Shown piece by piece: positions 1,244 to 9,881 of a stretch of DNA of 25,332 bases. This stretch comes from a virus. The translations under genes were made by a program, and so were the position numbers. Position 1 is the first letter of the stretch, and every line of letters starts with the position of its first letter. The stretch spans positions 1 through 25,332 of IMG/VR virus record IMGVR_UViG_3300020421_000128; one strand, written 5' to 3'. The notes below the pieces were generated by a model, which saw only the letters and a list, made by a program, of their open reading frames with translations, ran no database searches and was not told the DNA's origin.

Positions 1244-2426
1244 TCGATTTCTTCGAAGAGAGGAAACTGAGGAAAAGTTAAATCCTATACAAGCTTATTT
1301 AGGTAGCGGTAGTCAAACTTCTCGTGAATTCACAGATAAGTATGAAACTTATTATGAGAATCTAGAAGTTGTAAATCGCGCTGTTAATATGGTTGTAGAT
1401 GATACTGCCGAAATCCCCGCAATAGTTGATAGAGTCTCTGTCCCTGGAGTTATTAGAGGGATAAAGAGAGCCAAAGTAGATACTTTACTTAATAAAGAGC
1501 CCAACCCTTTCCAAGATATTAGTACATTTAAAAGAAATCTAATTACAGATTATCTTTTAGACGGGAACATGTTTATTTATTATGATGGTGCTCATTTATA
1601 TCATGTCCCTGCAGATACTGTACAAATACATGGAGACCCCAAAACTTACGTCGAACGATACACTTATAATGAAATAGATTATAGCCCCAATGAAATAATA
1701 CATATAAAAGAAAATTCTTTTCATGATATTTATAGGGGAGTATCAAGGTTAAAGCCGGCAGTTCGTACAATGCAAATTATGTCTTATATGCGAAGTTTTC
1801 AGGATAACTTTTTTAAGAATGGAGCAGTGCCTGGGTTAGTGCTTAAATCTCCAAATACATTATCTGAGAAAATTAAAGAAAGAATGATGCAGTCATGGCA
1901 GATACGTTATCGTCCAGATACAGGTGGACGAAGACCTCTAATACTTGATGGAGGTATAGAAATTGATAAAATTTCAAATGTTAATTTTAAAGAATTAGAT
2001 TTCCAATCAGCCATACAAGAAAATGAAAAGATTATATTAAAAGCAATAGGCGTTCCTCCTATCATGTTAGATTCAGGAAATAATGCAAATATACGTCCTA
2101 ACATGAGACTATATTATTTAGAAACTATACTACCTATTGTGAGAAAAATGAATTTTGGTTTGAGCCGGTTTTTTGGCTTCGAAATAAAAGAAGATGTAAC
2201 TAATATTCCAGCGTTACAACCAGAACTCAGAGATCAAGCCCTATACTATACTTCTTTAGTTAATGGAGGTATAATTTCTCCAAATGAAGCAAGAGATAAT
2301 TTAGGGTTTGATTCTGTTACAGGGTACGATGACTTACGAGTCCCAGCAAATATTGCTGGAAGTGCCGTTAACCCCTCGGAAGGGGGAAGACCGATTGAAG
2401 AGGAAGAGAATAATGGCAGCAACTAG
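1230..2426 (+). CDS. Portal protein (HK97 family)
   Basis: The portal forms the dodecameric ring at one capsid vertex through which DNA is packaged and to which the tail joins. At 398 residues the length is typical of HK97-type portals. Supporting phrases include ITDYLLDGNMFIYYDG, the IHIKE strand, a mid-protein FFKNGAVPGLVL, and the KAIGVPPIMLDSGN segment followed by YYLETILPIVRKM, a characteristic portal C-terminal core. The C-terminal SPNEARDNLGFDSVTGYDDLR is also common in this family. The start at 1230 lies inside the end of the HNH gene and is preceded by a GAGA. The 3' end overlaps the next gene (ATG at 2413). The acidic, Asn-rich tail is probably disordered. Identification is confident from family phrases and gene order. 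Confidence 0.95.
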   Translation: MAWYDRFLRREETEEKLNPIQAYLGSGSQTSREFTDKYETYYENLEVVNRAVNMVVDDTAEIPAIVDRVSVPGVIRGIKRAKVDTLLNKEPNPFQDISTFKRNLITDYLLDGNMFIYYDGAHLYHVPADTVQIHGDPKTYVERYTYNEIDYSPNEIIHIKENSFHDIYRGVSRLKPAVRTMQIMSYMRSFQDNFFKNGAVPGLVLKSPNTLSEKIKERMMQSWQIRYRPDTGGRRPLILDGGIEIDKISNVNFKELDFQSAIQENEKIILKAIGVPPIMLDSGNNANIRPNMRLYYLETILPIVRKMNFGLSRFFGFEIKEDVTNIPALQPELRDQALYYTSLVNGGIISPNEARDNLGFDSVTGYDDLRVPANIAGSAVNPSEGGRPIEEEENNGSN

Positions 2427-2733
2427 ATCAAGAAAGCTACGCCTTGTACGAGAAATCGGAATGTTCTTTGCCGAGTTAGGGCAAGTTCCGTCACGGGCGG
2501 AGTACGCTAAACTCAATAATAGACCTAAATTCTTGAATGTCAAAGAAGTAGATAGAATTTGTGGTTCTTGGGCTAAGATGTTGGCTATGTTAGAAAAAGA
2601 ACAATCAGATTTATGGGAACTTATTCATAAAGTCCCCGAGAAAAAAGAGCCTCCCATAGCACCAAAAATGGAAAAGGCTAAGACCGCTGAGGTTAAAGCG
2701 GAAGACGAGGGGGATGATGGAGAAGGTATTTAA
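2413..2733 (+). CDS. Small protein resembling the HNH-associated DNA-binding repeat
   Basis: This is a 106-residue protein of uncertain function. I place its start at ATG 2413, just after an AGGAAGAG ribosome binding site, rather than further upstream inside the portal gene. Residues about 8-60 contain a basic helix, then GQVPSRAEY (23-31) and GSW (51-53). The spacing of a helix, a G-x-x-P-S-x-x-E-Y motif and a final G-S-W followed by a helix resembles the short helical DNA-binding repeat often attached to HNH homing endonucleases (Pfam HNH_repeat type). The C-terminal third is lysine/proline-rich and then strongly acidic (EDEGDDGEG). It overlaps the portal gene by 14 bases and the protease gene by 20, so it belongs to the head operon. 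Possible roles are DNA binding during packaging or assembly, or a relic of a mobile HNH element. It shows no catalytic motif. Confidence 0.6.
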   Translation: MAATRSRKLRLVREIGMFFAELGQVPSRAEYAKLNNRPKFLNVKEVDRICGSWAKMLAMLEKEQSDLWELIHKVPEKKEPPIAPKMEKAKTAEVKAEDEGDDGEGI

Positions 2734-4687
2734 TCTCACCTCTACTTTTAAGTCTCATACTGAAGAAGATGGAAGTGTTAAAATTCGAGGTATGGCAAGC
2801 ACAACTGAATTTGATCGCGCGGGCGATTCTATTTCAGCAGATGCCTGGACTAAAGGTGGATTGAAAAATTTTGAAAAGAATCCCATAATTCTTTTTAACC
2901 ATGACTATAATAGACCTATTGGAAGAGCTACTGGACTAAAAGCTACTGAAAATGGACTAGAGATGGAGGCCAAGATAAGTAAGGCCGCCAAAGATGTTGT
3001 GGACTTAGTTAAAGACGGTGTCCTTGGAGCCTTTTCTGTTGGTTTCCGAGTCAAGGATGCTGATTACTTAGAGGAAACCGACGGATTAAGAATAAAGGAC
3101 GCTGAATTGTTTGAGGTATCAGTAGTATCTGTACCCTGTAACCAAACGGCTACTTTTTCACTGGCGAAGTCCTTCGACTCCATGTCCGAGTACGAAGATT
3201 TCAAAAAAACTTTCACTAATAGTGACGGGGCGCAAGTCCAAAAGGAGATACAAATGTCTGAAGAGACAAATCAACCCGTTGACTTGGAAGCTTTTGCTAA
3301 AAAGGTAGCTGAGGAAACTGCTGCTAAAATCGCAATGAAGCAAGCCGAGCAAAAAGCAGCCGATGAGGCTGTACAAAAAGAAGCTGAGGAGAGAGCTACT
3401 GCAGAGACAGAAGCCAAAGTTCAGCAAGAAGAAACAGTCAAGACTGCAATCAAAACTGGCGTAGAGTCAGGTGCAGAACGCTTGATGGAAGACATTCGCA
3501 AGGAATTCGAAGATGAGAAAGCCAATACTGCGGAAGTCATGGAGAAGTATAAGAAAGACCTACAAGAGAAGCAAGCTGAACTTGAAGCAATTCAAAACAG
3601 TAAGCGTGATTTCTCTGGTCGTCAGAAGGGTGACCTTCAGGCACATGGTCGTTCGCTTCTCGAAGCAACCGTTCTTGGTAAAATTACTGGGAAAGGTTTG
3701 GATGGAACCGATTATGGAAAGAGCGTTCTTGAGAAAGCTGGAGTTGACTATACGTCTACTACTGCAGCCGGTATCGATGTAATTGTTTCTACACAGTTTG
3801 AAAACGAACTGCGTCAAGAAATGAAAGTCGCACCTCTTTTCCGTGACATCCAAGTTGCTTCCGGTGCCACTGTACTACCATTGGCCCCAGACGCAGGAGC
3901 AGCAACGTTCAGCGCAGCTGGTGTAGGTGATTCATCTAACCAACTCTCTGACGCAGGTGATAACAACTATACTGTTAGCCAAGTAATCTTACAGGCTCAC
4001 AGATTGATCGCTGGTACTTATATCTCGAATGATACCGACGAGCAAGTAGTTGTAACATTGTTACCTATTGTTACTTCCGCACTAGCACGTGCACACGCAG
4101 TTGCCACTGACAAGATGATGCTTGTAGGTGGAACATCAGCTAGCATAAGAAAAGGTCTTGTAGGTCAGGATGGTACTGACGATACTAATGGTCTTTCTTC
4201 CGCTACAACCACTACTGCTTCAGTAGACGCTTCTGGTTCAGATGAAGTTACTCCCGCTATCCTTCTCGGTATGAGAAAGGAAATGGGCAAGTATGGTTTA
4301 GACCCTTCAAGAGTAGCCTTCATTGTTCCTAATGACGTTTACTACGAGCTAATTGATGCTTCTGGATTCACCGACGTAAGCGAAGTTGGAAACGACATAG
4401 CAACTAAGCGTATTGGTGTAGTTGGTTCAGTCTACGGTTCCCCCGTAGTTGCAACTAACCAGTTAGCAAGTAATTTGGCCGCCGCTGGCGCAGCTACTAC
4501 AACAGCAGCTGTTGCTGTTAATATAGACAACTATGTTGTACCCAAACTCAAGGGTGTCAGCATTGAAACTGAGTACAGTGTCAAAGATCAGCAAAATGTG
4601 ATCGTTGCCGCTCAATCACTTGGCTTCAACGAGTTGTACGCTGCAGCAGGCAGTGATAAGCCTTCAATGAGATTAAAGTACATCTAA
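2714..4687 (+). CDS. Prohead protease-major capsid protein fusion
   Basis: One 657-residue frame contains two head proteins that are usually separate. Residues 1-150 are an HK97-type prohead serine protease (family U35-like): the likely catalytic His is H63 in FNHDYNRPIG, the Ser is S108 in GAFSVGF, and ELFEVSVVSVPCN (131-143) is the conserved acidic/core motif. Residues about 181-296 are rich in Ala, Glu, Lys and Gln and look like a coiled-coil delta (scaffolding) domain. Residues from about 300 onward are an HK97-fold capsid protein, with phrases such as VAPLFRDIQV, ATDKMMLVGG and GLDPSRVAFIV. Start codons at 2714 and 2717 are both possible behind GAGGGGG. A much better Shine-Dalgarno sits inside the gene (3242-3247). 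The gene overlaps its upstream neighbour by 20 bases and is followed at once by a terminator. Function is confident; the cleavage site is not located. Confidence 0.95.
   Translation: MMEKVFNLTSTFKSHTEEDGSVKIRGMASTTEFDRAGDSISADAWTKGGLKNFEKNPIILFNHDYNRPIGRATGLKATENGLEMEAKISKAAKDVVDLVKDGVLGAFSVGFRVKDADYLEETDGLRIKDAELFEVSVVSVPCNQTATFSLAKSFDSMSEYEDFKKTFTNSDGAQVQKEIQMSEETNQPVDLEAFAKKVAEETAAKIAMKQAEQKAADEAVQKEAEERATAETEAKVQQEETVKTAIKTGVESGAERLMEDIRKEFEDEKANTAEVMEKYKKDLQEKQAELEAIQNSKRDFSGRQKGDLQAHGRSLLEATVLGKITGKGLDGTDYGKSVLEKAGVDYTSTTAAGIDVIVSTQFENELRQEMKVAPLFRDIQVASGATVLPLAPDAGAATFSAAGVGDSSNQLSDAGDNNYTVSQVILQAHRLIAGTYISNDTDEQVVVTLLPIVTSALARAHAVATDKMMLVGGTSASIRKGLVGQDGTDDTNGLSSATTTTASVDASGSDEVTPAILLGMRKEMGKYGLDPSRVAFIVPNDVYYELIDASGFTDVSEVGNDIATKRIGVVGSVYGSPVVATNQLASNLAAAGAATTTAAVAVNIDNYVVPKLKGVSIETEYSVKDQQNVIVAAQSLGFNELYAAAGSDKPSMRLKYI
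3242..3256 (+). promoter_or_regulatory. Internal ribosome binding site and ATG for separate capsid synthesis
   Basis: AAGGAG at 3242-3247 is followed by six bases and then ATG at 3254-3256, in frame with the surrounding protease-capsid ORF. It lies at the domain boundary, just after the protease and before the delta domain. The site at the start of the long ORF (GAGG at 2707-2710) is spaced less well from ATG 2714, so the internal site should initiate more often. Confidence 0.75.
3254..4687 (+). CDS. Major capsid protein from internal in-frame start (delta domain plus HK97 fold)
   Basis: This nested product shares the frame and stop of the protease-capsid fusion and begins at its residue 181. 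The ATG at 3254 is preceded by AAGGAG at 3242-3247 with a 6-base spacer, close to an ideal ribosome binding site and stronger than the one at 2714. The product would be 477 residues: a charged, coiled-coil-prone delta region of roughly 115 residues followed by a mature-size HK97-fold domain of about 360. The start falls between the protease domain and the delta domain, exactly where a separate capsid gene would begin in HK97-like phages. I infer that most capsid subunits come from this start and that the long fusion supplies a minority of protease-bearing subunits. This is a prediction from the sequence and needs protein evidence. Confidence 0.72.
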   Translation: MSEETNQPVDLEAFAKKVAEETAAKIAMKQAEQKAADEAVQKEAEERATAETEAKVQQEETVKTAIKTGVESGAERLMEDIRKEFEDEKANTAEVMEKYKKDLQEKQAELEAIQNSKRDFSGRQKGDLQAHGRSLLEATVLGKITGKGLDGTDYGKSVLEKAGVDYTSTTAAGIDVIVSTQFENELRQEMKVAPLFRDIQVASGATVLPLAPDAGAATFSAAGVGDSSNQLSDAGDNNYTVSQVILQAHRLIAGTYISNDTDEQVVVTLLPIVTSALARAHAVATDKMMLVGGTSASIRKGLVGQDGTDDTNGLSSATTTTASVDASGSDEVTPAILLGMRKEMGKYGLDPSRVAFIVPNDVYYELIDASGFTDVSEVGNDIATKRIGVVGSVYGSPVVATNQLASNLAAAGAATTTAAVAVNIDNYVVPKLKGVSIETEYSVKDQQNVIVAAQSLGFNELYAAAGSDKPSMRLKYI

Positions 4688-4703: not shown

Positions 4704-4735
4704 AACTCGGGGGAGCAACCCTCCCCCAAGTTTTT
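4704..4735 (+). terminator. Intrinsic terminator after the capsid gene
   Basis: GGGGGAG (4709-4715) pairs with CTCCCCC (4721-4727) around the loop CAACC. After one C/A mismatch the stem extends with AACT (4704-4707) and AGTT (4729-4732). A run of five T (4731-4735) follows. It begins 16 bases after the capsid stop codon. No promoter is recognisable between it and the next gene at 4748, so downstream head-tail genes probably depend on partial read-through. Confidence 0.9.
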
Positions 4736-9039: not shown

Positions 9040-9471
9040 ATGCCCGAAGAAAAGAAACCAACAGTATCGTTAAAGAGTCTTATGACTCCAAGTAAAACAG
9101 TATCAATCGACTTCCCTAGGTTTAAAGGTGTAAGTATAGATATTTGTTTTTTAGCCCGAGAAGAACTAATAAAACTTCGTAAGAGATGTATGAGTACGAA
9201 GTGGGATAAAAAGAGTCATCAACCATTTGAAGAGATGGATGAAGATAAATTTATCGTTGAGTATACCAAAGCAGTAATTAAAGGATGGAAAGGTCTAAAA
9301 TTTTCATACTTAGAAGAGCTTCTTTTGGTGGATATTAGTACCCTTAATCCAGATGATTGCTTGCCCTATACTCAAGAAAATGCTGAGTTACTGATGAAAA
9401 ATGCAACCGACTTTGATACGTGGGTTACAGAAGTAGTAGGTGACTTAGAAAATTTTACTGGAAACAAGTAG
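9040..9471 (+). CDS. Tail assembly chaperone (lambda gpG-like)
   Basis: This 143-residue acidic/basic mixed protein lies between tail tube and tape measure, the fixed place of tail assembly chaperones in siphoviruses. These proteins bind the tape measure and recruit tube subunits and are absent from mature virions. Little sequence motif evidence exists for this family; the call rests on position, size and the frameshift layout. The start at 9040 has TAAGGAA at 9026-9032 with good spacing. Near the 3' end, at 9450-9456, the sequence A_AAT_TTT in the correct phase is a canonical slippery heptamer, and a hairpin starts eight bases later. Zero-frame translation ends at TAG 9469-9471, inside that hairpin. 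A share of ribosomes should shift by -1 and continue into the next frame. Confidence 0.82.
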   Translation: MPEEKKPTVSLKSLMTPSKTVSIDFPRFKGVSIDICFLAREELIKLRKRCMSTKWDKKSHQPFEEMDEDKFIVEYTKAVIKGWKGLKFSYLEELLLVDISTLNPDDCLPYTQENAELLMKNATDFDTWVTEVVGDLENFTGNK

Positions 9472-9492
9472 CTGAAATAAGAACGTTACTTG
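9450..9492 (+). promoter_or_regulatory. Programmed -1 ribosomal frameshift signal (slippery heptamer plus hairpin)
   Basis: AAATTTT at 9450-9456 reads A_AAT_TTT in the frame of the gene at 9040, a correct X_XXY_YYZ slippery site. After an 8-base spacer, CAAGTAGC (9465-9472) can pair with GTTACTTG (9485-9492), including one G-U pair, around a 12-base loop. The zero-frame stop (9469-9471) is in the 5' arm. The -1 frame is open from 9444 to the stop at 9879-9881. The arrangement matches G/GT tail chaperone genes. The hairpin is only moderately stable. Confidence 0.85.
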
Positions 9493-9881
9493 AACGCTAT
9501 ATACAAGAACAAGGTACTATGGATGTTGAAAAATATCTACGTATTTGTGAGCAATTAGGGCAAGAACCAGATCCTACCAAAATGCCGCTCGATTCTTCTG
9601 GATTTCCGGAAGAAATTCAAGTGGCATTTTTTATGTTTGATCTACTATCGGATAAGTGGGATGGAATGTCGGGTACTTATCTAGGAAAAGATTGGTCACA
9701 GTGTACACAGTTATTTGATATTTATAATATTGAAGATCCTACGGTTACTCTATATTTTATGAAGATGTACGAATCTCTTGTAATATACGATCGTATGCAA
9801 AATCAGGAACATAAACGTAAAGCAGCAGAAAGAAAATCGCAGCAAGCGGGTAAAACATATACCCATAATGTGCAGGGATAA
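9456..9881 (+). CDS. Tail assembly chaperone extension (lambda gpT-like), made by -1 frameshift
   Basis: This is the -1-frame part of the long chaperone. Reading resumes at base 9456 with YWKQVAEIRTLLERY and ends at TAA 9879-9881, adding 141 residues to the 139 of the upstream frame, so the GT-like product is about 280 residues. The frame is open upstream of its first ATG (9519) as far as 9444, and the residues read there look like ordinary protein, which supports fusion over independent initiation. A start at 9519 behind a weak AAGG would give 120 residues and cannot be excluded. In lambda the T part binds the tail tube protein while G coats the tape measure. The last base of the stop overlaps the tape measure ATG. 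The C-terminal 25 residues are Lys/Arg/Gln-rich. Confidence 0.8.
   Translation, partial: YWKQVAEIRTLLERYIQEQGTMDVEKYLRICEQLGQEPDPTKMPLDSSGFPEEIQVAFFMFDLLSDKWDGMSGTYLGKDWSQCTQLFDIYNIEDPTVTLYFMKMYESLVIYDRMQNQEHKRKAAERKSQQAGKTYTHNVQG

Follow-up and report, generated by a model that had tools for sequence, protein, structure and literature searches.

A single gene of an uncultured T5-like phage encodes an S78 protease joined to a T5 pb8-type scaffold-plus-capsid protein (ORF 2714-4687, 657 aa), and the way in which its sequence is conserved strongly suggests that it is read from two start sites. We propose that it is a nested dual-start gene, in which protease-capsid and capsid-only chains would co-assemble and give the same mature capsid protein, a reading to which we assign a probability of about 87%. 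It bears on the question of how phages keep the number of maturation proteases packaged in each procapsid limited. If the proposal is true, the answer is built into one gene, with a tether that guarantees entry and two start sites that set the dose, and this rule appears in two families, one of which includes cultured phages and prophages. Fused protease-capsid genes are already known; in the literature on such fusions or on internal starts, we found no description of the dual start.

A fused protease-capsid gene in a T5-like head module

The DNA analysed, hereafter the window, is a 25.3-kb virus record (25,332 nt). It carries the head and neck gene set of the T5 family (Demerecviridae) in order: terminase, an HNH-like ORF, portal, a 106-aa ORF, the fused gene, adaptor, tail completion, tail terminator and major tail protein. 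The portal is ~41% identical to those of T5-like phages, and the tail completion, adaptor and terminator genes matched T5-like families. One trait of the Demerecviridae isolates examined, separate protease and capsid genes, is absent, as the gene in the window is fused. The HNH-endonuclease-like ORF between terminase and portal (878-1243) matches phrog_3497 and phrog_8048, and the 106-aa ORF (2413-2733) between portal and protease occupies the position of the gene for the T5 decoration protein pb10. As the end of this ORF overlaps the long start, that start may be translationally coupled. On the other side of the fused gene, T5 has an annotated terminator at a place equivalent to the stem at 4709-4735 (Table 1). 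Further downstream, two ORFs at 9040-9881 correspond to a tail assembly chaperone (phrog_313); the last codons of the first are GGA AAC AAG TAG, and the -1 frame runs on as YWKQVAEIRTLLERYIQEQG, which makes a programmed -1 frameshift likely.

Table 1 Features of the fused gene and its flanks in the window
Feature	Coordinates	Strand	Basis
Upstream ORF, 106 aa, no family; 3' end overlaps long start	2413..2733	+	ORF list, profile searches
GAGG, Shine-Dalgarno of predicted long product, 6 nt before ATG 2717	2707..2710	+	Sequence; duplex -6.8 kcal/mol
Predicted long product, protease-linker-scaffold-capsid chain, 656 aa (657 if ATG 2714 used)	2717..4687	+	2717 is the start conserved in homologues
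Head maturation protease domain (Peptidase_S78), residues 33-157; H63 2900-2902, S108 3035-3037	2810..3184	+	Pfam match
Variable protease-scaffold linker, low model confidence	3185..3253	+	Stop-free in 256 distinct homologues
AAGGAG, internal SD, selected at nucleotide level	3242..3247	+	Sequence and homologue comparison
Predicted short product, scaffold-capsid chain, 477 aa; ATG 3254-3256	3254..4687	+	ATG in 256/256 homologues; matches start of separate T5 capsid gene
Delta (scaffold) domain, residues 181-341, long helices	3254..3736	+	Profiles, T5 alignment, model
Predicted scaffold cleavage site K341/A342	3734..3739	+	Homologous to T5 K159/A160; K341 invariant
Mature capsid domain, T5 pb8-type HK97 fold, residues 342-657	3737..4684	+	Profile and Foldseek matches
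GGGGGAG/CTCCCCC stem then T run, terminator-like, directly 3' of fused gene	4709..4735	+	Sequence

The first-pass annotation had read the frame as an HK97-type protease with H63 and S108, followed in the same chain by a delta domain and a capsid fold, and both halves of that assignment held. The protease domain matches Pfam Peptidase_S78 (PF04586; 1.3e-16, 61.7 bits, cut-off 21) and phrog_80 (2.8e-40). H63 and S108 are kept in every homologue that covers those positions (254 His and two gaps, and 255 Ser and one gap, respectively, of 256). The remainder of the chain is T5 pb8-like, matching profiles of PDB 8ho3, 8zvi and 5tjt with E values of 1e-48 to 9e-53; the alignments to 8ho3 and 8zvi (9e-53 and 2e-52) begin at chain residue 25, and a match to PHROG 617 covers both domains. 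A predicted structure, of moderate confidence (mean pLDDT 65) and used for domain placement only, has a beta-rich N-terminal domain, a low-confidence linker at ~169-191, long helices at 191-298 and an HK97-fold capsid domain; its best Foldseek matches in the PDB are the T5 and DT57C capsids.

In T5, 775 copies of pb8 form prohead I, from which the protease removes the scaffold (PMC5292684), and ~160 N-terminal residues are lost from the capsid proteins of T5 and DT57C (PMC10713586). By alignment, the T5 site K159/A160 corresponds to K341/A342 of the window protein, where K341 is invariant in homologues, and we infer cleavage near this position. Three related loci (L036, L067 and L079) are nearly identical to window 2714-4687 in the protease and early scaffold and very different in their capsid domains, a mosaic indicative of recombination inside the fused ORF.

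Two predicted in-frame start sites

The domain boundary holds AAGGAG (3242-3247), ATACAA and then, in frame, ATG 3254 (M181), in the linker where the scaffold begins; this is the Shine-Dalgarno (SD), six-base spacer and ATG that had drawn attention to the gene. The predicted duplex of this SD with the anti-SD of the 16S tail (-8.7 kcal/mol) is stronger than those of the other genes in the window, except for a G-rich run before the long start if spacing is ignored. The other main ORFs of the window contain 104 internal in-frame ATGs, none with a duplex as strong as -7.0, and across the family no internal ATG other than M181 is both widely conserved and preceded by a strong SD.

The long product had been described as a 657-residue chain from 2714. 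An ORF of that length is present, but the codon at 2714 is not kept as a start: relatives have ATA, CTA, TTT, AAG, TAA and others here, with ATG often found only at the second codon. The long start is therefore probably M2 at 2717, which would give 656 aa. With this start, GAGG (2707-2710) sits 6 nt upstream and forms a duplex of -6.8 kcal/mol.

Selection on the internal start

Related loci were collected from IMG/VR and GTDB contigs. Both domains are present in 305 of them, and in 304 a single open frame covers the two; the remaining locus (L166) has a run of N. Among 256 distinct fused homologues that are 39-98% identical, a search for loss of the internal SD or ATG found none: all 256 have ATG at M181, and every one has an SD, either in place or in a shifted register. 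The hexamer at the SD position is AAGGAG in 112, CAGGAG in 60, ACGGAG in 32, AAGGAA in 22, GAGGAG in 13, ATGGAG in six and TTGGAG in three; the remaining eight sequences are out of register, with GGAG or AGGA at slightly different spacing.

The pattern of change within the SD separates selection on nucleotides from selection on protein. Codon 177 occurs as AAG, CAG, ACG, GAG, ATG, TTG and AGG, that is, as seven amino acids, with 20 changes on the tree at its first position, eight at its second and none at its third. Third positions average 37.2 changes, and of the 608 columns no other is free of change. Where the residue is Thr, the codon is ACG in 32/32, although ACG makes up 6% of Thr codons in the family. 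The third base of the following codon (GAG/GAA) changed only twice. These are Fitch counts, and thus minimum counts, on one tree that is approximate owing to recombination inside the ORF; neither property can create the contrast at codon 177. An earlier 5-codon scan of synonymous conservation on close relatives had ranked the SD first; part of the protease domain also scored low, and for this reason we replaced the scan with tree-based counts on the wider set.

Since codon 177 encodes seven amino acids, protein function cannot explain its fixed third base; selection therefore acts on the nucleotides of the SD, which makes use of the internal start almost certain. The two nested products anticipated for this gene are thus strongly supported by comparative evidence.

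Origin and maintenance of the fusion

T5 has the same protease family (gene 150), scaffold-capsid protein (the pb8 precursor, gene 149), gene order and neighbours as the window, and its capsid gene starts, with an SD before the start, at the position matching M181. In T5, however, the protease gene ends in its own stop, the capsid gene follows 17 nt later, and the protease has no covalent tie to the capsid protein. Across T5 and the other isolates checked, the two genes are separate and adjacent (-1 to 17 nt apart) and the capsid start aligns to M181; the frame is even shared, with only 12-15 nt between the genes, in phiR2-01 and a Proteus phage. Among the matches listed, no phage isolate had a fused T5-type gene. 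The simplest history is that a T5-like ancestor lost the protease stop and kept the capsid ribosome site.

The fusion is under selection in its own right. Across the 256 distinct homologues, the linker ranges from 22 to 52 residues and has accumulated at least 1,821 inferred changes, yet none of the ~87 stops expected under neutrality was seen, and linker indels occur only in whole codons. Were the tether without a role, stops should appear, since one in the linker would suffice to recreate the T5 arrangement; their absence indicates that the open frame through the linker is selected. As full-length queries could favour fused genes and hide split ones, we also carried out three scans seeded with the protease alone or the capsid alone. 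These returned 186 loci with both domains in one frame, all with a start-like SD-ATG at the junction, and two exceptions. One (L406) has a deletion and frameshift inside the protease. The other (L455:1-240) has a single in-frame linker stop with SD and ATG intact, and is either an assembly error or a naturally split gene, in which case some of these phages may manage without the covalent link.

Proposed protease dosing and assembly

Ribosomes starting at 2717 would make a protease-linker-scaffold-capsid chain, and those starting at 3254, from an SD embedded in coding sequence, would make the scaffold-capsid chain alone. With the same scaffold and capsid domains, the two chains should co-assemble into one procapsid, the long chain bringing the protease inside by covalent linkage. 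Cleavage of both chains by the protease near K341/A342 would then detach the protease and scaffold parts and leave mature subunits that no longer differ, such that mature virions would hide the long form. In this scheme, in which we infer both initiation at the two starts and co-assembly of the chains, the number of proteases in a shell would follow from how often ribosomes start at one site relative to the other.

The first-pass annotation further noted a weaker-looking site at the long start and predicted a scarce long chain and an abundant short one. HK97 proheads contain ~60 proteases per 415 capsid proteins and D3 proheads ~90 per 540, sub-stoichiometric protease being normal in this class (PMC12749128). 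A minority of long chains is therefore expected, and the SD strengths in the window (-8.7 versus -6.8) agree with this. Among homologues, the order of strengths is a majority trend rather than a rule. The internal SD is the stronger in 183/249 (73%) and the weaker in 64/249, and in a clade around L279-L316 the order is often reversed, with long-start SDs down to -12 kcal/mol. Predicted mRNA folding around 2717 versus 3254 gave no consistent support for a stronger internal start, the mRNA near 3254 being not generally less structured than that near 2717. Elongating ribosomes could also partly block the internal site. It is plausible that the long chain is the minor product; a weaker SD at the long start holds for the window and for most homologues, but not for every lineage.

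Alternative explanations

One alternative is that only the long chain is made, with a protease in every subunit, and that AAGGAG-ATG is a chance or protein-level feature (a conserved K-E and M). The frame is open throughout, and M181 and E178 are conserved as residues, as this would predict. Yet the amino acid at codon 177 varies while its third base never does, a pattern that protein selection cannot produce; the near-fixed third base of GAG/GAA and the retention of GGA(G) even where the SD has shifted frame point the same way, and M181 lies in a low-confidence, variable linker. We therefore consider this explanation highly unlikely. Equally unlikely, in our estimation, is the idea that the long chain cuts itself in the linker and in this way supplies most of the capsid-only subunits, with the internal SD serving mainly to pause ribosomes so that the protease folds first. 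In its favour, the protease is by design active on this chain, and a slowing of elongation by SD-like sequences has been proposed. A pause would not require an ATG, whereas the ATG here is invariant, at start-like spacing and at the start of the homologous T5 gene; moreover, the linker differs widely in length and sequence among homologues, with no evident shared cleavage motif.

The strongest competitor, although still improbable, accepts both products and treats the fusion as a neutral accident in which a T5-like stop was lost and the tether has no role. The same-frame genes of phiR2-01 and the Proteus phage could be fused in just this way by loss of a stop, one locus (L455) carries a linker stop, and genes of the PAJU2 type (below) occur both fused and split. 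Against this stand the lack of any linker stop in 256 distinct sequences where ~87 are expected, the restriction of indels to whole codons, and the 186 fused loci against two exceptions in scans unbiased towards fusion.

Comparison with known systems

The first-pass annotation noted that fused protease-capsid ORFs are known from some phages, and PAJU2, with a gene annotated 'prohead protease fused capsid protein', bears this out. Like the window gene, genes of the PAJU2/JLK-2012 type combine an S78 protease, a scaffold and an HK97-fold capsid protein in a single ORF, with an SD and a start codon inside it where the scaffold begins. They differ in that their capsid is HK97-type rather than T5 pb8-like, apparently reflecting a separate fusion event, and in that split relatives exist. 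In named records of phages, prophages and plasmids (from Pseudomonas, Salmonella, Escherichia, Rhizobium/Bradyrhizobium, Ewingella, Citrobacter, Arsenophonus and Enterobacter), an SD and ATG were present at the scaffold start in 11/11 examined. Environmental relatives were fused in 69 of 80 cases and split in nine. In all 69 fused loci a start codon lies no more than two codons from the scaffold start, and 66 have an SD of -5 or better there, against a background of 102/960 internal ATGs. Several of the split environmental loci visibly have an SD before the capsid start; the split capsid gene of a Moraxella phage starts at the same scaffold N-terminal place, and in Stenotrophomonas phage SOVA965 (63% identity to PAJU2) protease and capsid are likewise separate, the capsid start being preceded by AAGGA. 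A search for PAJU2-type genes in 274 genomes gave none at a strict cut-off and was uninformative.

On these sequences, the PAJU2/JLK-2012 family is apparently an independent case of the same dual-start design. We give even odds to a broader reading: joining protease to capsid while keeping the capsid's own internal start would be a general means of dosing in HK97-fold phages, reached by convergent evolution, in which the tether would guarantee packaging and the initiation ratio on one mRNA would set the dose without a separate targeting signal. Annotations of PAJU2-type genes give just a single long product, 'phage major capsid protein' or 'prohead protease'; if the dual start is real, annotation and structural work on such phages uses the wrong N-terminus for many subunits.

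A gene of the Salmonella phage Gifsy-2 (L319:2472-4562), a single ORF of 697 aa annotated as a Clp protease, is a tripartite protease-scaffold-capsid gene. It has in-frame ATGs with strong SDs at residues 186 and 221 as candidate internal starts, but its protease is of the unrelated ClpP type and its capsid lambda-like, whereas the window protease is S78.

Nested products with a common C-terminus are familiar from lambda C/Nu3, which yields protease plus scaffold and scaffold alone, and from herpesvirus UL26/UL26.5, in which analogous products are made from nested transcripts. The likeness in logic to lambda C/Nu3 proposed in the first-pass annotation is borne out: in both, an in-frame internal start gives a C-terminal product, as comparative evidence indicates for the window gene. 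The nested lambda product is scaffold only, whereas that of the window would include the capsid protein itself, and as the window protease is S78 rather than of the ClpP/S49 type of lambda C, the window gene is an analogue of the lambda system and not a member of it.
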